Below are positions 17,884-27,690 of a DNA stretch of 28,309 nt, in pieces. The position numbers and the translations under genes are program-made. Each line of letters opens with the position of its first letter. Position 1 is the first letter of the stretch. The DNA lies in IMG/VR virus record IMGVR_UViG_3300009106_000022, positions 1-28,309 of that record. One strand, written 5' to 3'. Under the pieces are notes generated by a model. It saw only the letters and a program-made list of their open reading frames with translations. It searched no databases and was not told where the DNA came from. This stretch comes from a virus.

Positions 17884-17900
17884 AGTGGTCGGAGACCACT
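17884..17900. repeat. Hairpin AGTGGTC-GGA-GACCACT at the RNA polymerase 3' end
   Basis: A seven-base-pair hairpin overlaps the RNA polymerase stop codon. The same hairpin core, GTGGTCGGAGACCAC, occurs at 19601-19617 just before the RNA polymerase gene, so the gene is bracketed by the same element. On the minus strand it is followed by TTGAATGATTTTT, so it may work as a weak terminator. Confidence 0.6.
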
Positions 17901-19569
17901 AAGAGATCGCATATTTGCTTGCGAGTATGTCAAGGTGCAGGTCATCACTTTCTTTAGCAATGCTTATATTCTTACCGCTGATTTCCGATAAGATGTCAGC
18001 CAACAGATCACTCTGTGCGATGTCTGCTAGGATCTCACGGTATATACGTGATGCATCTTGCATGTTATCGGGGTGAAAATAGAAGCAATCGAAAATATGT
18101 GCAATATCGAATGGACAACGGCGTACCATTTCACGGGCGACGTAGCCATCGACAGAGTGGATAATATTAGGTACTAAAGAGGTTGATTTACGTGATGGTT
18201 TATTTGCTTTGTAGATATAAGCGAATCGACGATGATTCAACTCATCAATCTCAACACGCTTATCTACTGTTTCAATGACCGGTACAACTGAACGGTGCCC
18301 GTCGGGGAGAGTCCAGCTGTGCTCGAGTGCGCGTTTATTCCAGAAGGCGTTGATCGTATCCATAACGTCTACGGCACCGGGGCATAGTCCATCTAATGCG
18401 TTGTAGAACGCCTGTAGCTGTACATCGTTGAATGCCTTACGTGGTTCTTCGAGGCTATTATAATAGTGAGTCATCACCGGCTGTTTAACCATGTTGCGAT
18501 TCACATAGTCTGCAGGTGGTAACGGGCTATTCATCGTATCAGCCACGAGTGTGTACAGATCTTCTCGTGTGCCTGAATAGATCAAGTTGCATGCTTTCGC
18601 TGTGGTCTTACAGCCGATCAATGCCGCCATGATCTGTAAGCCCGAGGCAGTAGCATCTAGCCCCATCATGTAGTTACTAGGCAGTCCTTGTTCTGCTAGG
18701 GCATAAGCGCGTAATGCTTTGCGTCCTAGTAGGGGGTATTTGAATTCTTCTGTATCGAAGCCTTCTTTAAGTTGGGAATCAAACCATGCTATACGTTCTT
18801 CGAACAAGAGCTTATCGTGTCCGGCTTCGTTAGCTACGGCTATTTTTAGGTTATCGAGATTTTCACTAACTACCTTTTTGCGAGGTGATAGCAGAGCCTT
18901 GTCATATTCATGGCTCTGATAATTCACAAAATAGCTATGCATATAAGACCGTCCTCGCATGTCATAGCGCCATTTGAAATAGAACCCACGACCTATAAGA
19001 TCGTTATATATGGCTTTGAAATCAGCACGGGTCTTAACCGAGTGATGCTTAGCTTTAGGGTTCTTTTCATGACGTAGAACCTCAGTATCTATACACCATT
19101 CTATATCTTGTAAGATATTAAGTACGTCATACGACTGTGCTTGATTGTGGTGTTTCATCCCACCACCTAATATGATGGAGTCTTCGCCATTATGGTTACT
19201 ACTCCATTTGTTAGGCTTAAAAGTGGGGAAGTTGGATTTTATCAACGCTTCTTTAGGTAAGTTAGGCAGCACATAGGTGCCATAACGGGTCATATCAAGC
19301 GTGTACCACCCTTGGTTTTGACAGATTGCTAACAACTCAGCGCCAGTCTTCACCGCGTCAAGTTGATCCTTATACCCAAGGCTAGTACCTAGGCGTGTGG
19401 CTACGTTCTGGATGGGGGTTTTGTCCTGCTGGGTACGACAGAGTGCCGTCCACAGCTTCGAAGAGATATCTAACGGTGTTAGTTTCCGCTCTTTCAACTC
19501 AGCTATACGGAGCGCTTTGCTCTTATAGCTATATTGTTTATTTAGGTACTCTGATATCTGAGCTTCCAT
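17899..19569 (-). CDS. Compact single-subunit (T7-like) DNA-directed RNA polymerase
   Basis: At 556 residues this is shorter than T7 RNA polymerase (883). The catalytic set is present: a DxRGR segment (YDMRGRSY), motif A LDATASGLQ (Asp ~304), motif B with VKQPVMTHYY (Lys ~362, Tyr ~370; eight apart as in T7 Lys631 and Tyr639) and motif C HIFDCF (Asp ~494). The region before motif A is about 230 residues shorter than in T7, so much of the N-terminal domain is missing or replaced. The start is ATG 19569, seven bases after GGAG; the in-frame TTG at 19581 lies in the SD. It presumably transcribes phage genes from its own promoters; the recurrent dyad motif is the best candidate. Confidence 0.92.
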   Translation of the reverse strand: MEAQISEYLNKQYSYKSKALRIAELKERKLTPLDISSKLWTALCRTQQDKTPIQNVATRLGTSLGYKDQLDAVKTGAELLAICQNQGWYTLDMTRYGTYVLPNLPKEALIKSNFPTFKPNKWSSNHNGEDSIILGGGMKHHNQAQSYDVLNILQDIEWCIDTEVLRHEKNPKAKHHSVKTRADFKAIYNDLIGRGFYFKWRYDMRGRSYMHSYFVNYQSHEYDKALLSPRKKVVSENLDNLKIAVANEAGHDKLLFEERIAWFDSQLKEGFDTEEFKYPLLGRKALRAYALAEQGLPSNYMMGLDATASGLQIMAALIGCKTTAKACNLIYSGTREDLYTLVADTMNSPLPPADYVNRNMVKQPVMTHYYNSLEEPRKAFNDVQLQAFYNALDGLCPGAVDVMDTINAFWNKRALEHSWTLPDGHRSVVPVIETVDKRVEIDELNHRRFAYIYKANKPSRKSTSLVPNIIHSVDGYVAREMVRRCPFDIAHIFDCFYFHPDNMQDASRIYREILADIAQSDLLADILSEISGKNISIAKESDDLHLDILASKYAIS

Positions 19570-19600
19570 GATGTACTCCAATTTAATTAATTAATCACAT

Positions 19601-19631: not shown

Positions 19632-19655
19632 CTCAGTCTCGCGTAGCGAGCTGAG
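19632..19655. repeat. Stem-loop repeat (first of three copies) at the Nudix gene end
   Basis: The arm CTCAG(T)CTCGC pairs, with one bulged base, with GCGAGCTGAG around a GTA loop. Copies are also at 21614-21637 and 22336-22359. Here it encodes the C-terminal LATRD of the Nudix protein and its TGA stop. Confidence 0.75.
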
Positions 19656-20100
19656 CTAGTTGGTCACATAGAGTTTCGTAACGTAGTTGCCAGAGGAACA
19701 GCTTAGTGGCAGACATCATGGGTAGCCTTGCTAGTGCTTTAGCAGGTGTTACCCATTTAAAATCTGCTATTTCCTCCTGCTCTTCGAGAAAATCTTCTAA
19801 GTGTTCATACTTTGAGTACTTAGAAGCGACGGAGTAAGCTACTGTGTAGAAAGTAACTTTCCCTCCTGTTTTAGAGGGGTGAACACAGCAGTCTTTTAGT
19901 AGCTGTGCCCCATTCTCGCCTAGGTCAACGCCCGTTTCTTCTCGTAACTCACGAAGAGCCGTAACTCTTGTTAGAAACTCTCCATCACGTTGCCCACCGC
20001 CTATGGGCTGCCAGAACTCTGGATTTTTCTTAGTTCTGCATAGTAGTATTCTGTTGTTTGATATGATCCCGACCATTGATGCGTTCTTTTTAGTACTCAT
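19633..20100 (-). CDS. Nudix hydrolase
   Basis: The 155-residue protein has a Nudix box GGQRDGE then RELREETGV (residues ~37-60), the site that binds Mg and cleaves nucleoside diphosphates linked to another group. The spacing between the first Glu and RE is eight residues rather than seven, a one-residue insertion. The conserved FWQPIGGG before it is typical. In a phage it could clean oxidised nucleotides, alter nucleotide signals or remove NADH-type caps; the substrate cannot be told. Its end is encoded by the stem-loop repeat, and its start overlaps the TGA of the 66-residue membrane gene (ATGA). Confidence 0.88.
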   Translation of the reverse strand: MSTKKNASMVGIISNNRILLCRTKKNPEFWQPIGGGQRDGEFLTRVTALRELREETGVDLGENGAQLLKDCCVHPSKTGGKVTFYTVAYSVASKYSKYEHLEDFLEEQEEIADFKWVTPAKALARLPMMSATKLFLWQLRYETLCDQLAQLATRD

Positions 20101-20297
20101 GAGTGTGCCTCCTTATAGCCTATGTACAGGCCAATACAGAATGTGATGATTAGGTAGTAAAAGTAATAGGTTAGCCAGAGGGTGATGTGTCCTGTATATA
20201 TGGCTATGATGAGAGTTGCCCAGAAGAACATTGTTAGGGCTTTGGTGTACCATGGGAGAGACTTCCAGATAGTTATTAATAAGTTGATTATTTGCAT
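20097..20297 (-). CDS. Small membrane protein, 66 aa (paralogue of 24376-24615)
   Basis: ATG 20297 has the SD GGAGTACACAAC; a longer frame upstream would include the preceding terminator and is rejected. The protein starts MQIINLLITIWKSLPWYTKA, then has two hydrophobic segments (~22-38 and ~42-60) and ends GYKEAHS. It shares the ITIWK start and overall layout with the 24376-24615 protein. Probably an inner-membrane protein; function unknown, possibly superinfection exclusion. Confidence 0.75.
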   Translation of the reverse strand: MQIINLLITIWKSLPWYTKALTMFFWATLIIAIYTGHITLWLTYYFYYLIITFCIGLYIGYKEAHS

Positions 20298-20361
20298 GTT
20301 GTGTACTCCTGTGTAGTAGTAAGTCGTGCGTAGAGTGGGGAGAAAATAGGTCAAATAACCT

Positions 20362-20387
20362 AAAAAAGTCCCCATCCCTAACGGGGA
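20362..20387 (-). terminator. Rho-independent terminator after the AlkB-like gene
   Basis: On the minus strand CCCC, a nine-base loop and GGGG form a short stem, followed by ACTTTTTT. It begins 9 bases past the AlkB-like stop. Confidence 0.75.
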
Positions 20388-20395
20388 AAATTGTG

Positions 20396-20989
20396 TTAGC
20401 GCACCGTGCGCCAGGTTAGGTTGAGTCTGTGTCCCTCAGGACACCCGAACGCGCCAGTGTCTCCGGTGTGTGGGTCTGGTTTTGATGCAGCGTGGTAATA
20501 GTTAGTGAAAAATTTACGGGAACCGATTACTAGATCCCCATCTTCAAGTGTTATGCGGTAGGTCTTACCGCCTTTATAGGCACGGCTGAACGTAAATTCA
20601 GCTGATGCGCCCAGAGAGAAGGACGCTAATGGCCCGACTAATTCAGGCTCGTTATCTTTATGTTGATTTATGCTATGCTGAGGTTCATAGTGATTTAATA
20701 AGACGTGGTTGAAGTAGCGGTCATGATTCTTAGCCTGAAGAAATTGCCGGACATCTTCAGATAGCTTCTTGATACTAGGCGTACGTTCCCACCCAGTAGC
20801 TACGTGGTCTTTGTGAGAGTAGTGGTAGTTCAGATCTTCATCCCCTACCCAACCCACATAGCGTCCGAACTCGTACAGGCTGGCAGACATTACCAATTCA
20901 GCTATTAATGTATTCCTAAATTTATAATCTAAGTTTAGATGCTCAGTTTTTAAGACGGCACCTGCGCCATCGTCGAAGATAGTTTTCAT
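20396..20989 (-). CDS. AlkB-like Fe(II)/2-oxoglutarate dioxygenase
   Basis: The 197-residue protein has the AlkB core: NHYEPQHSINQHKDNEPEL (HxD iron motif), a distal His in NYYHAASK, and HRLNLTWR, the RxNxTxR signature that binds 2-oxoglutarate and the iron site. It should reverse alkylation damage (methyl groups) in DNA or RNA. The start is ATG 20989 (MKTIFDDG), six bases after GGAG; the longer in-frame start at 21022 would overlap the 59-residue membrane gene. As a phage gene it may protect phage DNA or undo host-imposed base marks; the substrate is inferred. Confidence 0.92.
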   Translation of the reverse strand: MKTIFDDGAGAVLKTEHLNLDYKFRNTLIAELVMSASLYEFGRYVGWVGDEDLNYHYSHKDHVATGWERTPSIKKLSEDVRQFLQAKNHDRYFNHVLLNHYEPQHSINQHKDNEPELVGPLASFSLGASAEFTFSRAYKGGKTYRITLEDGDLVIGSRKFFTNYYHAASKPDPHTGDTGAFGCPEGHRLNLTWRTVR

Positions 20990-21165
20990 AATGTACTCCA
21001 TGATATAAAGAACAACGTCCAACTCAGGACGCTGGATAAGAGGCTAAGGGCTGCAACTGAGCCAGTAGCACAGGTAAGTTTCATGGTTGATAAGACTGCG
21101 TACCCGGCGCAGCCTGTCCCTAGAGCTGTGAGCCCTAGGAACAAAGTTATGACGTAATCCATCAT
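20986..21165 (-). CDS. Small membrane protein, 59 aa
   Basis: The frame starts at ATG 21165, overlapping the TAA of the 63-residue gene (TAATG), and its TGA overlaps the AlkB-like start (ATGA), a typical coupled pair of junctions. It begins MMDYVITLFLGLTALGTGCA and has two hydrophobic segments (residues ~3-23 and ~36-55), so it is probably an inner-membrane protein. Function unknown. Confidence 0.65.
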   Translation of the reverse strand: MMDYVITLFLGLTALGTGCAGYAVLSTMKLTCATGSVAALSLLSSVLSWTLFFISWSTL

Positions 21166-21356
21166 TAGAACGGTACGTCTTCATCAGTTACCTGATGGTT
21201 TGCGCCATCGAAGGGCGCGTAGCTAGACTGGGGCCCGTTGACCTCGTCCCAGAGCTCCGCTACGCCTGTATATGGGTATTCAGCCATAAGGTCTTCTTTG
21301 CTCATGACGCGGGCTTGGTCTTCGATATGTTCTAGAAAACGTTTAGTATTTGACAT
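21165..21356 (-). CDS. Small acidic protein ending in SSB-like tail DEDVPF, 63 aa
   Basis: ATG 21356 has the SD AAAGGAG; an in-frame upstream start would include the terminator. The protein starts MSNTKRFLEHIEDQARVMSK and ends VTDEDVPF, close to the bacterial SSB tip DDDIPF, which recruits many repair enzymes. There is no OB-fold, so it may be a tail-only decoy or an adaptor that binds SSB-interacting proteins. It is flanked by a terminator upstream and coupled to the downstream membrane gene. Confidence 0.75.
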   Translation of the reverse strand: MSNTKRFLEHIEDQARVMSKEDLMAEYPYTGVAELWDEVNGPQSSYAPFDGANHQVTDEDVPF

Positions 21357-21380
21357 GATTAGTACTCCTTTAATAGGTAT

Positions 21381-21415
21381 AAAAAAGCCCACACACTTAG
21401 GATAAGTGTGCAGGC
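21381..21415 (-). terminator. Rho-independent terminator before the 63-aa gene
   Basis: On the minus strand CACACTTA, a TCC loop and TAAGTGTG form a perfect stem, extended outward by partial GC pairs, and followed by six T residues. It ends the transcript of the 45-residue gene upstream. Confidence 0.9.
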
Positions 21416-21422
21416 ATGGGTT

Positions 21423-21446
21423 ATTAGCTATGCTTATAATTTTAAG
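21423..21446 (-). promoter_or_regulatory. Dyad motif copy near 21.43 kb
   Basis: The minus strand reads AATTATAAGCATAGCTAATA, matching the recurrent dyad. It overlaps the stop of the 45-residue gene and lies upstream of a terminator, which argues against a simple promoter role for this copy. Confidence 0.3.
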
Positions 21447-21571
21447 ATAGCCAATTCACGCTCAGCTTGTGCAAGCTCAGCGAATAACGGGGATGCAGGG
21501 CAGTTACCCTTTACATCCCATATTCTGTAGGCAAATATATAACCTAACTGGATAGTTTTTATAGTGAACAT
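21434..21571 (-). CDS. Small hypothetical protein, 45 aa
   Basis: ATG 21571 follows the SD AAAGGAGTACTAACC, shared in form with the 21356 start. The protein begins MFTIKTIQLGYIFAYRIWDV and ends with a helix AELAQAERELAILKL. The first half is hydrophobic enough to associate with the membrane but no clear span is seen. A stop at 21434 and a terminator soon after support it as a gene. Confidence 0.65.
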   Translation of the reverse strand: MFTIKTIQLGYIFAYRIWDVKGNCPASPLFAELAQAERELAILKL

Positions 21572-21588
21572 GGTTAGTACTCCTTTTA

Positions 21589-21638
21589 GTTAATGGACAA
21601 GTTAATCATTCAACTCAGTCTCGCGTAGCGAGCTGAGA
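21589..21638. repeat. 50-base direct repeat with stem-loop (copy 1)
   Basis: The 50 bases from GTTAATGGAC to GAGCTGAGA are identical to 22311-22360, as read by eye. They include the CTCAG(T)CTCGC stem-loop. Here the repeat encodes the last residues of the DUF4326 protein (LRETELND) and its stop. Confidence 0.9.
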
Positions 21639-22015
21639 TTTAAAAATAGAGGAAGGTAGCTGAGTTGAAAGAGCGCTAAGTAGTGGCTATATTCATCACT
21701 TACTTCATCCCAGTCAAAGAACGTGTTGTACGCGTATAACACCTCACGTATTATTTCGCCGTGACATTGCTTAGGTGCACAGAAACACCCTAGTACTAAG
21801 GTGTCGTGGGATACAGCTAAGTTATATAGACGTTCAAGCTCATCTATAACAGCTGGATTAGACTGGGCAATTTCACCATATAACCAGTCACGATACTGGT
21901 CACAGACCAGTTCGCGTTGGCTTTCATCCTTCATTACGAAGGGGTTGCCTAATGGCGATCCACGCCCGATGTACTGGGCGTTGGCTTCATGTTTACGACC
22001 TACTTTTATATGCAT
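21602..22015 (-). CDS. DUF4326 protein
   Basis: The start is ATG 22015 (MHIKVGRKHE), with the SD GGAGAAAAACA; the longer in-frame start at 22087 would run through the leader hairpin. Residues ~15-26 (YIGRGSPLGNPF) and ~73-86 (LVLGCFCAPKQCHG, with Cys-x5-CHG) are the signature of DUF4326, a small phage and bacterial family of unknown function, possibly nucleotide-binding. After about residue 100 there is an extra C-terminal extension containing WDEVSDE and ending in the repeat-encoded LRETELND, so the tail is likely not part of the conserved domain. Confidence 0.85.
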   Translation of the reverse strand: MHIKVGRKHEANAQYIGRGSPLGNPFVMKDESQRELVCDQYRDWLYGEIAQSNPAVIDELERLYNLAVSHDTLVLGCFCAPKQCHGEIIREVLYAYNTFFDWDEVSDEYSHYLALFQLSYLPLFLNLSSLRETELND

Positions 22016-22032
22016 TGTTTTTCTCCGGTTAA

Positions 22033-22048
22033 GGGGTCTTTCGACCCC
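22033..22048. repeat. Hairpin GGGGTC-TTTC-GACCCC in the DUF4326 leader
   Basis: A perfect six-base-pair stem with a TTTC loop (GAAA in the minus-strand transcript, a stable GNRA-type tetraloop) lies just upstream of the DUF4326 SD and downstream of the 78-residue gene. No T-run follows, so mRNA stability or processing is more likely than termination. Confidence 0.6.
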
Positions 22049-22061
22049 ATATAGTTGACGG

Positions 22062-22298
22062 TTAATGATATTGGTAATGTGATTCAACTGCTGCTCTTAA
22101 ACGAACAAGATACTCTGATGCCTCTGCTAACTCATGATCCGCTCCGGCCCAAGCATCACCAGAAAACGATACTGATGATTGGTACTCACAACGCAACTCA
22201 CCGTACTGTTGGTGGGCGATATAGTAGCGCTCCTTTAATTCAGCTAAGTCGTTATCTCCGTGATAGGCTTTAAAATCTTCAAATGTAAGTGTTGTCAT
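22062..22298 (-). CDS. Hypothetical protein, 78 aa
   Basis: ATG 22298 has the SD GGAGAAAAACA, the same cassette as the DUF4326 gene. The protein is helical, starting MTTLTFEDFKAYHGDNDLAE, with a middle segment SSVSFSGDAWAGADHELAEA. No family recognised. A 50-base repeat carrying the stem-loop precedes it. Confidence 0.75.
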   Translation of the reverse strand: MTTLTFEDFKAYHGDNDLAELKERYYIAHQQYGELRCEYQSSVSFSGDAWAGADHELAEASEYLVRLRAAVESHYQYH

Positions 22299-22310: not shown

Positions 22311-22360
22311 GTTAATGGACAAGTTAATCATTCAACTCAGTCTCGCGTAGCGAGCTGAGA
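22311..22360. repeat. 50-base direct repeat with stem-loop (copy 2)
   Basis: Same 50 bases as 21589-21638. Here the stem-loop encodes ARYARLS and the stop of the 42-residue gene, in a different reading frame from copy 1. Confidence 0.9.
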
Positions 22361-22737: not shown

Positions 22738-23067
22738 CTATACCTCTTTTTCGACTAAAAGCCAGTTAATTTCTGCTTCCTCAGGAAGCTCAGTGGCTCC
22801 TTCAGGGAGCCGTTGGTCTATCGTCCCAATGATCATCTGATCACCAAAACGAAGTTTCACTGCTATCCTATTCATTGGTATATCAGCCTTTAATAAGCTG
22901 CTGAACACCGCAGCCGTGTTTGCGTGTCCTACGCAGGACACTGTGTTCTCGCTCTCATCGAGCAGGCTTATCACCCACTCTGTTGATATTGGCTCGAACC
23001 GTACTGAGGTTCCGCCTGGTGCGTAAGTGAGCATGCTAGGGCTAAAAGCGTTGCTTATAAAGATCAT
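22738..23067 (-). CDS. acrIII-1: AcrIII-1-type viral ring nuclease (DUF1874), anti-type III CRISPR
   Basis: The 109-residue protein matches the DUF1874 family described as AcrIII-1, which cleaves cyclic tetra-adenylate and so shuts off type III CRISPR ancillary nucleases (Athukoralage and colleagues). Compared with SIRV1 gp29 as I recall it: N-terminal NAFSPSML (NAFSINML), VGHANTAA with the catalytic His at residue 48 (GHDST, His47), NRIAVKL (NRVEIKL), and QRLPEG (QRLEEG, Arg86 and Glu89 here). These residues are all present, so the enzyme should be active. ATG 23067 has the SD GGAG, and the stop of the 140-residue gene lies inside its leader. It should act in the cytoplasm as a dimer early in infection. 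Confidence 0.9.
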   Translation of the reverse strand: MIFISNAFSPSMLTYAPGGTSVRFEPISTEWVISLLDESENTVSCVGHANTAAVFSSLLKADIPMNRIAVKLRFGDQMIIGTIDQRLPEGATELPEEAEINWLLVEKEV

Positions 23068-23070
23068 GAC

Positions 23071-23493
23071 TTATTCTCCTATGATTTGTTTGTGGTTTTC
23101 TTTGACCCATTCGATGGAGTGGGTTGTGTAGTAGTCTCTGAACTTGTCGAAGACTATCTGCTGCAGTTCGTCCATATCCATGGACTTGATTAACTTCTCA
23201 GCCATTTCTATAGCTAAGCCATCGCGTTCTTTTGCCCTCTCATCGAGAGAGATGATTCGCTTAGCTTCATCACGAAGCAAGCTTAGCTCTTCCTCAGAGA
23301 ATTCATTAATCGCGAATATGTTAGTCACATACTCTTGCCCCCACTCATAATCGTACTCTATGAGCGGCTTAGCCCATTCAAGCACCTCCTTTTTAGTGAG
23401 GCGATTGGTTGTGTAGGTATAGGTATTACCACCTGACTTCTTATAACGGGGGCCGTCTTTTTCTACGAGCTGTGAATAAATGATGTATTGCAT
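23071..23493 (-). CDS. Hypothetical protein, 140 aa
   Basis: ATG 23493 (MQYIIYSQLVEKDGPRYKKS) follows AGGAG. After a beta-like first 50 residues it is helical, with AEKLIKSMDMDELQQIVFDK (~107-126) followed by FRDYY, a pattern also seen in the left-cluster protein at 558-833. No catalytic motif. It lies directly upstream of the AcrIII-1-like gene and just downstream of the iteron array. Confidence 0.8.
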   Translation of the reverse strand: MQYIIYSQLVEKDGPRYKKSGGNTYTYTTNRLTKKEVLEWAKPLIEYDYEWGQEYVTNIFAINEFSEEELSLLRDEAKRIISLDERAKERDGLAIEMAEKLIKSMDMDELQQIVFDKFRDYYTTHSIEWVKENHKQIIGE

Positions 23494-23688
23494 GATATTT
23501 CTCCTATAAATGAGGTATTCCACCCGAGCAAAAGGACTACAGGTGGACTACAGATTGTGAAACAATTATGTTTCACGGAAAAATGAAAATTGTACATTAA
23601 TTGTACAGGGACTACAGATGGTCTAAAACAGGTGTTTTTAGAGGGCATCGGTAGCTGAAAAACTCATTAAGAATCAATGAGTTACAGA

Positions 23689-23740
23689 GCGTAACAGGTG
23701 GTAACAGATGGACTACAGGTTTTTGGACCATCTGTTACGC
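23689..23740. repeat. Iteron cluster with inverted arms GAGCGTAACAG / CTGTTACGCTC
   Basis: Three direct iterons (GCGTAACAGGTGG, GGTAACAGATGG, GGACTACAGGT) are followed by the inverted ACCATCTGTTACGC. The outer arms AGAGCGTAACAG and CTGTTACGCTCT can pair over 12 bases, giving a cruciform about 58 bases wide. Confidence 0.75.
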
Positions 23741-23956
23741 TCTAAGTTATTGATATTAATAAGGAATTTCCTTGTTTTTACTAGGACTACAGATTATTTA
23801 AGTCTAGTAAGTAATAAAACTACTATAAAAACAAGAAAATGCTTAGTATAAAAGACACTAATATGTATATATGGGGCTAAGTGACCCGCACATGTCGTCA
23901 CATGTTACGCAGTGCCGAAAAGTGTCTTTTTCCCCTTTAATATCAAAGGGTTAGGA

Positions 23957-23998
23957 GCGTAACAGGTTGAAATGACCATCTGTAGTCACCTGTTACGC
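23957..23998. repeat. Inverted iteron pair GCGTAACAGGT / ACCTGTTACGC
   Basis: An 11-base perfect inverted repeat surrounds ACCATCTGTAGTC, which is itself an inverted iteron. It is just downstream of the 97-residue gene and may define one side of an origin or an operator. Confidence 0.75.
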
Positions 23999-24007
23999 CC
24001 AAAGGGC

Positions 24008-24301
24008 CTAAAATACGCTAAGTTCTAGCGCAGTGGCCTGTACTGCTTCCTCCTCAGAGGCGTACTCAGCCTCCCACCAGCGCTCGGCAGTCTCGTAAGA
24101 AACGGAGGCGTTTCTTACGAACGCCTCTATAGTTAACGGTTTCTCCATTTCACGGTTTTTCCGTACCGCCATGAGCTCATCCCACAGCGCTTGCTTCTCA
24201 GCAGGCGACGAGTTTGGGTTGTAGAACCCGTCACGAGGACGGATACCAAACTCGTCTTTGTATAAGCACGAGTAAATGTCTTCATCGTATGTGTAGTTCA
24301 T
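24008..24301 (-). CDS. Hypothetical protein, 97 aa
   Basis: ATG 24301 has the SD AAGGAGAACATC. The protein begins MNYTYDEDIYSCLYKDEFGI and continues RPRDGFYNPNSS, a pattern (Y..xYKD..G.RPR) I have seen in small phage and satellite proteins of unknown function. The rest is helical, with AERWWEAEYASEEEAVQATA near 71-90. It ends 10 bases before the iteron array. Confidence 0.75.
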   Translation of the reverse strand: MNYTYDEDIYSCLYKDEFGIRPRDGFYNPNSSPAEKQALWDELMAVRKNREMEKPLTIEAFVRNASVSYETAERWWEAEYASEEEAVQATALELSVF

Positions 24302-24303
24302 GA

Positions 24304-24377
24304 TGTTCTCCTTATTAAGTTAAGTACTGATTCAAAGTTCAACCCAGCCCACGTAGTGGGCTGGGAGTTGCTTGGCT
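24304..24377. repeat. 74-base direct repeat with perfect 10-bp hairpin (copy 1)
   Basis: The 74 bases are identical to 24618-24691, as read by eye. They contain an SD for the gene downstream and a perfect hairpin at 24343-24365 with arms CCCAGCCCAC and GTGGGCTGGG and a GTA loop. There is no T-run, so this is not a classical terminator. Confidence 0.9.
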
Positions 24378-24615
24378 ATAGTTTGTTGAAGTATGCATCT
24401 AGTGAATCTATGGTTCTTTGAGCATAACCACGCCCAAAGAAGTACCCCCAGATACCTCCGATGATGGTGCATACCAACCAGTATGCTAGATACCACATCA
24501 CCTTACCGGCGATGATGGCTGTTATTAACAACACAGTGTTGAAGATCGCGAAGACCTTCATCCATGCTGGGGTTAGATGCCATAATTCCTTCCAGATAGT
24601 TATAAAATCTTTCAT
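24376..24615 (-). CDS. Small membrane protein, 79 aa (paralogue of 20097-20297)
   Basis: ATG 24615 follows AAGGAGAACACC. It starts MKDFITIWKELWHLTPAWMK and has hydrophobic segments at ~21-37 and ~40-62, then a short charged tail (RGYAQRTIDSLDAYFNKL). The layout and the ITIWK motif match the 66-residue protein at 20097-20297, suggesting duplication. Its stop overlaps one end of the 74-base repeat. Inner-membrane location is likely; function unknown. Confidence 0.8.
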   Translation of the reverse strand: MKDFITIWKELWHLTPAWMKVFAIFNTVLLITAIIAGKVMWYLAYWLVCTIIGGIWGYFFGRGYAQRTIDSLDAYFNKL

Positions 24616-24617
24616 GG

Positions 24618-24691
24618 TGTTCTCCTTATTAAGTTAAGTACTGATTCAAAGTTCAACCCAGCCCACGTAGTGGGCTGGGAGTTGCTTGGCT
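24618..24691. repeat. 74-base direct repeat with perfect 10-bp hairpin (copy 2)
   Basis: Same 74 bases as 24304-24377, with the hairpin at 24657-24679. It lies immediately downstream of the 92-residue gene and supplies the SD of the 79-residue membrane gene. Confidence 0.9.
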
Positions 24692-25465: not shown

Positions 25466-25951
25466 ATGTCCATTACAGCGGGTGACATTGCTTATCTTCA
25501 ATCGTGCTACCCACACGCAGACATAACACCGTTAACTGCACAGCAAGAGCAGTTTGTGCTGTATGTATTACGAGGTTTCACACCGTCTCAAGCGGCGAAA
25601 GCTGCAGGTTACAAGAGTTACAACCAGTCTGGGAGTTCATTGATGAAGATGGACAAAATTCAGGCGATATTAGGTCATCTACGGAGTGAAGAACTAGATA
25701 ATATAAAGGTGACAAGGGATAAGCTGACTATAATGCTATTCGAAGCTCATCGAAAGTCCGCTACTGCTACGGAAGAGATAACGGCGGTGAGAGAATTAGG
25801 TAAGATGCACGGACTTTATGAGCCAGAAAAGGTGCAAACGCAAAGTATGCACTATCATAAGGTGGAACAATTAGAGCGGTTAGATGATTCAGAGTTAGTT
25901 AAGTTAGCTGGCGCGGATGATTTCGCCTTACCTCCCCCAACAGAGCCATGA
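25466..25951 (+). CDS. Terminase small subunit
   Basis: The 161-residue protein has a helix-turn-helix-like segment FTPSQAAKAAGYKS (~38-51) after TAQQEQFVLYVLRG, the typical N-terminal DNA-recognition part of small terminases, followed by helices ITAVRELGKMHGLYEPEKV (~103-121). It lies directly before the large subunit with an ATGA overlap at 25948-25951, the standard arrangement. It should recognise the packaging site and load the large subunit. SD is weak (GGGA). Confidence 0.88.
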   Translation: MSITAGDIAYLQSCYPHADITPLTAQQEQFVLYVLRGFTPSQAAKAAGYKSYNQSGSSLMKMDKIQAILGHLRSEELDNIKVTRDKLTIMLFEAHRKSATATEEITAVRELGKMHGLYEPEKVQTQSMHYHKVEQLERLDDSELVKLAGADDFALPPPTEP

Positions 25952-27690
25952 TCCCGTTAAAAAAATGCAAGAAATGCAAAGAAGAGCATAAAGAGACGCT
26001 GTTCAAAGGCGAATTGTGCGTAAATTGCTTTCAAAATGCGGATATCAAAGCGACCCATCGTCGAAGTAAGGCAAAGAACCCTGAAGTAGTGGCTGAATTA
26101 GCTGAGAAGAAGCGTGAACGTCATCAAAAAGCGCGGGACAGTCTCCGGGGCAAAACCAAAGCGAAGAAAGAGAAGGAATTAGTTAAGAAAGAGGTCGAGC
26201 GGTTACAGCCAGACGCTAAAGAACTAGCTAAAAAAGAGTTAGCGCGGCGGGAGTTGGCTAAGCGACGACTGTTACCGTTCGTTACACGATTTTTCCCAGA
26301 ATATCAGGCGGGCTGGGTGCATAAGGACATATGCGAGCGGCTTGAGAAGTTCTCAGAGGCAGTGGCGAATAAAGAGTCCCCACGTTTGATGCTATTCATG
26401 CCGCCACGCCACGGTAAGAGCCTACTGGCATCGACGTATTTTCCAGCGTGGCACCTAGGTCGTAACCCCACACATGAGTTTATTGCGTGTTCATACTCTG
26501 GGTCGCTGGCGATGAGCTTCAGTAGGAAAGTCAGACAGGTTCTGCGGGAGAAGCCGTACCAAACGGTGTTCAAAGAATCGCGGTTGGACAGGGACAGTCA
26601 GTCGGCAGAAGCATGGCTGACCGATAAGGGCGGCGGTTATGTCGCGGCAGGTGTCGGCGGTGCGATCACAGGTAAGGGTGCCCACGTTTTGGTGATTGAC
26701 GATCCGGTTAAGAATAGAGATGACGCAGAGTCGGAGACGGGTCGGCAGTCGGTTAAAGATTGGTACACATCTACAGCGTACACACGGTTAGCCCCCGGCG
26801 GAGGGGTGCTGGTGATCTTAACGCGGTGGCACGATGACGATTTAGCTGGATGGCTGCTCTCGCAGCAGGACACCGGCGACAAGTGGGAGGTGATCAAATA
26901 TCCGGCGATAGCGGAGATCGACGAGCCGCATCGTGAGAAAGGCACCCCGTTGCATGCAGCTCGGTATGACTTAGAGGCTCTCAGACGGATCCGCGCTGCG
27001 GTAGGCCCGCGCGATTGGTCGGCGCTATATCAGCAAAATCCAGTCGCGGATGAGGGCGAATACTTCACACGTTCGATGATACGGTATTACACCGAGGAGC
27101 CACCTCGCAAGGAGATGAAAATCTACGCGGCGTGGGACTTGGCGATTGGGCAGCGAGAGGCTAATGACTACACCGTTGGAGTGGTCATGGGCGTGAGTAC
27201 TGAGGACAAGCTGTACTTATTACACGTTGAGCGCGGTCGGTGGAACGGACACGACATCGTAGAGAAGATGCTCGATGTGTACGAAGCGTGGCGGCCAGAC
27301 ATCATCGGGGTTGAGAAAGGGCAGATTGAGATGGCTATCGGACCGTTCCTAGAGAAACGTATACGGGAGCGTAACTTATTTGAGGCGTACTTCAAGGATC
27401 TGAGACCGGGTAAACGGGACAAGATGGTACGCGCCCGTGCGATCCAAGGTCGGATGCAGCAGGGTATGGTGCTATTTCCTAAAGACTCCGAGTTCACCAC
27501 TTCACTTATTAATGAGATGCTCCGTTTCCCTAACGGGGTGCATGACGATCAGGTTGATGCCATGGCATGGATCGGTCTGATGATGGCAGAGTTTAACATT
27601 TACAGAGCCCCAGTCGAGAAGCCACCACCAAGCTGGCGTGACAAATTAACAGCGTTCGGAAAAAGTAAGAAGAACGCAATGACAGCATAG
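25948..27690 (+). CDS. terL: Terminase large subunit (ATPase and nuclease)
   Basis: The 580-residue protein has Walker A MPPRHGKS (~150-157), Walker B VLVIDD (~247-252), a coupling segment VILTRWHDDD, and a C-terminal RNase H-like nuclease with acids in AAWDLAIG (~396), GVEKGQIE and HDDQVDAMAW (~532). All needed residues are present. It drives packaging and cuts DNA concatemers. It is unusual in starting with a zinc-finger-like CKKC-x13-CVNC segment (Cys7, 10, 24, 27), followed by a long Lys/Arg-rich helical stretch (~40-110) before the ATPase core. Confidence 0.95.
   Translation: MIPLKKCKKCKEEHKETLFKGELCVNCFQNADIKATHRRSKAKNPEVVAELAEKKRERHQKARDSLRGKTKAKKEKELVKKEVERLQPDAKELAKKELARRELAKRRLLPFVTRFFPEYQAGWVHKDICERLEKFSEAVANKESPRLMLFMPPRHGKSLLASTYFPAWHLGRNPTHEFIACSYSGSLAMSFSRKVRQVLREKPYQTVFKESRLDRDSQSAEAWLTDKGGGYVAAGVGGAITGKGAHVLVIDDPVKNRDDAESETGRQSVKDWYTSTAYTRLAPGGGVLVILTRWHDDDLAGWLLSQQDTGDKWEVIKYPAIAEIDEPHREKGTPLHAARYDLEALRRIRAAVGPRDWSALYQQNPVADEGEYFTRSMIRYYTEEPPRKEMKIYAAWDLAIGQREANDYTVGVVMGVSTEDKLYLLHVERGRWNGHDIVEKMLDVYEAWRPDIIGVEKGQIEMAIGPFLEKRIRERNLFEAYFKDLRPGKRDKMVRARAIQGRMQQGMVLFPKDSEFTTSLINEMLRFPNGVHDDQVDAMAWIGLMMAEFNIYRAPVEKPPPSWRDKLTAFGKSKKNAMTA

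Follow-up and report, generated by a model that had tools for sequence, protein, structure and literature searches.

A predicted AcrIII-1-family ring nuclease carried as an accessory gene by a tailed phage with an N4-type RNA polymerase

The window analyzed here, a 28.3-kb virus contig (28,309 nucleotides, IMG/VR record IMGVR_UViG_3300009106_000022), contains a gene for a 109-residue protein which, judged from its sequence and its modeled fold, is very probably a viral ring nuclease of the AcrIII-1 family that degrades cyclic tetra-adenylate (cA4) and thereby acts against type III CRISPR immunity. The gene is a clear-cut though unremarkable new member of an established anti-CRISPR family. It and the features that bear on its interpretation are as follows:

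17899..19581, minus strand: N4-type RNA polymerase, single chain, 560 aa
22466..22735, minus strand: downstream neighbor, 89 aa, its second half kept in the related record L002
22607..23487, minus strand: stretch missing in L002, with a 10-bp junction; it covers the ring nuclease gene completely and nearly the entire upstream gene
22738..23067, minus strand: predicted AcrIII-1-family (DUF1874/PF08960) ring nuclease, 109 aa, with active-site residues H48, R67, R86 and E89
23071..23493, minus strand: upstream neighbor, 140 aa from an ATG with an AGGAG site; an orphan, missing from relatives along with the ring nuclease
23075..23080, minus strand: AGGAGA ribosome-binding site of the ring nuclease gene, read directly from the sequence
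23494..24007, minus strand: conserved non-coding region upstream of the operon, rich in CTGTAGTCC and GTAACAG/CTGTTAC repeats
25948..27690, plus strand: terminase large subunit, which marks the record as a tailed phage

The sequence-only reading of positions 22738-23067 had given no strand; the coding strand is the minus strand, as the plus strand is full of stops across this interval and only the minus strand is open, with an ATG start at 23067. The gene begins 3 bases past the stop of its upstream neighbor, and this spacing makes it very likely that the two share one transcript. The encoded protein, MIFISNAFSPSMLTYAPGGTSVRFEPISTEWVISLLDESENTVSCVGHANTAAVFSSLLKADIPMNRIAVKLRFGDQMIIGTIDQRLPEGATELPEEAEINWLLVEKEV, displays SNAFS (residues 5-9), GH with H48, NRIAVKL (66-72) and QRLPEG (85-90), so that all the DUF1874/AcrIII-1 landmarks previously claimed for it (NAFS, GH with His48, NR-x-x-VKL and QRLPEG) are indeed present. 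The search with the PF08960 model suggested at that stage recovered the protein at 53.9 bits (E=2.1e-14 in Pfam), about twice the gathering score of 26 bits and hence not a weak score, and phrog_5063 matched it at 77 bits (E=1.9e-21). Sequence matches in the PDB were AFV3-109 (E=7e-11), STIV B116 (8e-8) and SIRV1 gp29 (1e-7), with none outside the AcrIII-1/DUF1874 family. By these sequence comparisons the family match is far beyond chance. The Csx16 model of PADLOC also matches the protein, at 34 bits; in a control the same model matched SIRV1 gp29 and other DUF1874 proteins, so that it fails to tell the two families apart, and the label was set aside. In Pfam the protein retrieves PF08960, and up to E 1 there is no Csx16 family among its matches; this favors DUF1874 over Csx16.

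A comparison of the predicted active site with characterized members of the family showed that: 1) In a pairwise alignment H48, R67, R86 and E89 correspond to H45, R64, R83 and E86 of AFV3-109, which are the conserved interacting residues of that protein; in its structure His45 touches Arg64 and, across the dimer, Glu86, and Arg83 is a dimer contact (PMC1796864). 2) H48 also aligns with H47 of SIRV1 gp29, the H47A form of which is described as inactive (PMC7213978), and in the Csx1-Crn2 fusion H495A abolishes cA4 cleavage by the Crn2 domain (PMC7293037). The correspondence of H48 with H47 of SIRV1 gp29 and H45 of AFV3-109 supports the earlier assignment of His48 as the catalytic residue. 3) In an alignment of nine members from named viruses N6, G47, H48, N66, R67, R86, L87 and G90 are invariant. 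4) In a larger alignment of 36 sequences, which includes the window protein and draws nearly all its rows from IMG/VR contigs, R67 is kept in every row, R86 in 34 and E89 in 32; H48 is likewise found in 36/36, a count biased by the presence of GH in one of the two scan patterns.

An AlphaFold2 model of the monomer built on the 36-row alignment (pLDDT 94.8, pTM 0.86) predicts a five-stranded sheet with helices on one side, which is the fold of 6SCF and 2J6B. The top PDB match of the model in Foldseek is SIRV1 gp29 (6SCF, E 7e-10), the first 17 PDB hits are all AcrIII-1/DUF1874 family members, and the other best matches are AFV3-109, STIV B116 and Csx1-Crn2. Superposition with VIA-align yielded Z-scores of 14.8 for STIV B116, 14.7 for 6SCF (over 105 residues), 14.6 for AFV3-109 and 13.7 for the Crn2 domain; scores within the family extend from 14.8 to 10.1 and then fall to 2.6 for unrelated proteins. 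Thus the proposed structural check against SIRV1 gp29 returned the same fold.

Among the known systems, AcrIII-1 itself, SIRV1 gp29 (PDB 2X4I, 6SCF), resembles the window protein in its fold and in the positions of the catalytic His, Arg and Glu residues, and both are small, stand-alone, virus-encoded proteins; however, it comes from an archaeal rod-shaped virus rather than a tailed phage, and shares only 26% identity with the window protein, about the level of identity that the latter shows to any biochemically tested member. AFV3-109, the best PDB sequence match, and STIV B116 (PDB 2J6B, 2J85) belong to the same family and fold, but are likewise from archaeal viruses and are 27-30% identical. 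DUF1874 proteins at about 31-43% identity are encoded by Thermoanaerobacterium phage THSA-485A, Fusobacterium phage Fnu1, Microcystis phages and Nitrosomonas stercoris plasmid 1, yet in these the neighboring genes are unrelated and the stretches compared share no backbone genes with the window. The cellular Crn2 and the Marinitoga Csx1-Crn2 fusion have the same domain fold and the active-site histidine (Z 13.7), but Crn2 is encoded in type III CRISPR loci, whereas the window gene lies in a phage and away from recognized cas genes: none were detected among 20 window proteins with Pfam or among 15 with PADLOC.

We infer a host with a type III CRISPR system, dimerization of the protein, cA4 cleavage and early expression. 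In the proposed mechanism the host type III complex would recognize phage RNA, upon which its Cas10 subunit would make cA4, switching on toxic effectors such as Csx1. A dimer of the phage protein would close around cA4, bound in the inter-subunit cleft, and cleave it to linear A2>P; H48 is the putative catalytic residue, R67, R86 and E89 would shape the site, and the removal of cA4 would keep the effectors off. Early expression is probable, the gene being second in an operon that reads leftward from a conserved non-coding region. As an accessory gene, it would come and go between close relatives.

It is also conceivable, though improbable, that the protein uses the same fold as a ring nuclease or binding protein for another ligand, such as cA3, cA6, or a CBASS or new cyclic nucleotide. 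Its low identity to the tested members leaves some room for this, as does the breadth of the family in uncultivated phages (73 loci), which is almost untested; but the catalytic and dimer-contact residues match those of the cA4 enzymes in position and type, and the distant members that have been tested, SIRV1 gp29 and Csx1-Crn2, both cleave cA4 (PMC7213978, PMC7293037). We give similarly little credence to a shift of the variants in uncultivated bacterial phages, that of the window included, to a signal other than cA4; were it true, the accessory gene would counter a defense other than the known cA4-signaling type III CRISPR. Very improbable is the view that the DUF1874 protein binds DNA and regulates phage transcription, with no anti-CRISPR role. 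DNA binding was the function first proposed for AFV3-109 and STIV B116 (for AFV3-109 in a 2007 reading, PMC1796864), and several archaeal virus records are still named 'DNA binding protein'. Although AFV3-109 bound dsDNA by fluorescence quenching, its closed dimer is without a strong positive patch and its conserved residues ring the cavity (PMC1796864); later work showed fast, histidine-dependent cA4 cleavage (PMC7213978, PMC7293037), and the active-site residues are all kept in the window protein. That the gene is a decayed or inactive homologue retained by chance can practically be dismissed in view of its full-length frame, good ribosome-binding site, complete set of active-site residues and confident full-length predicted fold. 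The preferred reading is that of a cA4-degrading ring nuclease of the AcrIII-1 family.

The setting in a tailed phage, also part of the sequence-only reading, is upheld by the terminase and the replication genes. Beyond the terminase and the RNA polymerase, the window encodes a DNA polymerase A, an AAA ATPase with a VWA/DUF2201 protein, a DUF5906 protein, a SNF2 helicase and a PD-(D/E)XK nuclease. The best named relative of the terminase is that of Aeromonas phage phiA008 (53%), followed by Pseudanabaena, Aggregatibacter and Pseudomonas phages, and the relatives of the RNA polymerase are in N4-like phages of Pseudomonas, Alteromonas and Acinetobacter. These relationships make a host among the Pseudomonadota plausible, an assignment that we hold with low confidence. 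The 560-aa RNA polymerase appears to combine both subunits of the N4 enzyme (PDB 6DT7) in a single chain: its residues 173-237 align with the end of RNAP1 and its residues 244-494 with RNAP2, which are separate genes in N4-like phages. In six distant relatives (L038-L041, L043, L044) the terminase gene contains insertions of roughly 0.6-1 kb at two sites, which fall near residues 157-250 and 516-536 of the window terminase; these insertions are probably inteins or introns.

Three viral records, L002-L004 (62, 44 and 61 kb), share the gene order of the window and encode RNA polymerases 89-91% identical to that of the window. No PF08960 match was found across the whole of these records or of phiA008, nor in 27 further terminase-sharing records, many of which are fragments; the ring nuclease is thus present in 0 of 31 records, fragments included, of phages related by RNA polymerase or terminase. 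As the three near-syntenic relatives lack it, the ring nuclease is an accessory gene, in agreement with its earlier placement in an accessory region, and the existence of close relatives without it indicates that it is dispensable in some hosts. In L002 the leader continues through ATGCAA, the first two codons of the upstream gene, and passes at the junction in frame into the latter half of the 89-aa downstream gene. A deletion in the ancestor of L002 is the simpler reading, since L002 retains part of the downstream gene behind a start codon that is not its own; acquisition of the stretch in an ancestor of the window phage is the less simple one. The site differs in L003 and L004, and in L003 a 103-aa gene is found there.

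The upstream neighbor is listed as a frame of 150 aa from a GTG further up than its ATG. A gene of 140-170 aa lies just upstream of the ring nuclease at several other loci, as in the window. A conserved two-gene cassette was nevertheless rejected: in an all-against-all comparison of neighbors from about 85 loci the upstream and downstream genes proved unrelated, and shared neighbor families occurred only in small groups of similar phages. The window upstream protein had no match at the ring-nuclease loci or in viral contigs and no convincing match in phage records, and its structure predicted from the single sequence has a pLDDT of 42.7. The suggestion that the 20-25 kb region is a place to look for other anti-defense genes stands insofar as the region holds variable small genes; in 19.6-25 kb none besides the ring nuclease was recognizable as a known anti-defense gene, PADLOC being a catalog of defense rather than anti-defense genes. 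Among the variable genes are those for NUDIX, AlkB-like 2OG oxygenase and DUF4326 proteins (19633-22087, minus strand): in the corresponding stretch AlkB is absent from all of L002-L004, NUDIX from L003 and L004, and DUF4326 from L002.

The non-coding region preceding the operon contains CTGTAGTCC five times (0.2 expected in the window) together with the inverted GTAACAG/CTGTTAC repeats, and is conserved in L002-L004. It is a possible to probable regulatory region or origin. Two further repeats occur in this part of the window. An exact 24-bp hairpin, CTCAGCTCGCTACGCGAGACTGAG, is present three times on the minus strand (19632-19655, 21614-21637 and 22336-22359). The copies lie at the ends of genes or close to them, and in that position the hairpin can be translated as the tail QLATRD; the first 18 bases have two copies in each of L002-L004. 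A terminator, a promoter hairpin and a recombination site are candidate roles for this unexplained element. An 81-bp direct repeat (24297-24377 and 24611-24691, 99% identical) carries another GC-rich hairpin (CCCAGCCCACTACGTGGGCTGGG) and flanks a 79-aa gene, and the pair is a possible cassette boundary.

In one partial scan of viral contigs a four-member alignment recovered 73 loci with relatives of the ring nuclease, so that genes of this kind are common; the window protein alone retrieved no close relative. In a tree the window protein lies, on its own long branch, in a poorly resolved group of 13 rows (support 88/86) with other viral contigs, the Nitrosomonas plasmid and one uncultured bacterium. 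Only two cellular contigs carry a relative; of these, the one that the tree places near the window protein has, when read by eye, ordinary-looking chromosomal genes and not a CRISPR locus. A DUF1874 gene annotated as 'YddF family' (66 bits) on Vibrio aerogenes plasmid pLMG19650 (L016, 2905-3222) sits between cas1 and a RAMP CRISPR superfamily gene and is likely a cellular Crn2. In an annotated phage set 52 records match the family, including Sulfolobales viruses and phages of Thermoanaerobacterium, Fusobacterium, Microcystis, Methanobacteriales and Hydrogenobaculum, and none of these is obviously of the window lineage with its N4-type RNA polymerase. A survey of 28,114 phage genomes in a curated database reported AcrIII-1 in 36 (PMC12409355); set against this, the 73 loci suggest a wider distribution of the family in uncultivated phages. 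The window gene leaves the picture of what the AcrIII-1 family does unchanged. It extends the known carriers of AcrIII-1 to a lineage of phages that have an N4-type RNA polymerase and named relatives infecting bacteria such as Aeromonas and Pseudomonas, and in which closely related phages offer a natural comparison with and without the gene.
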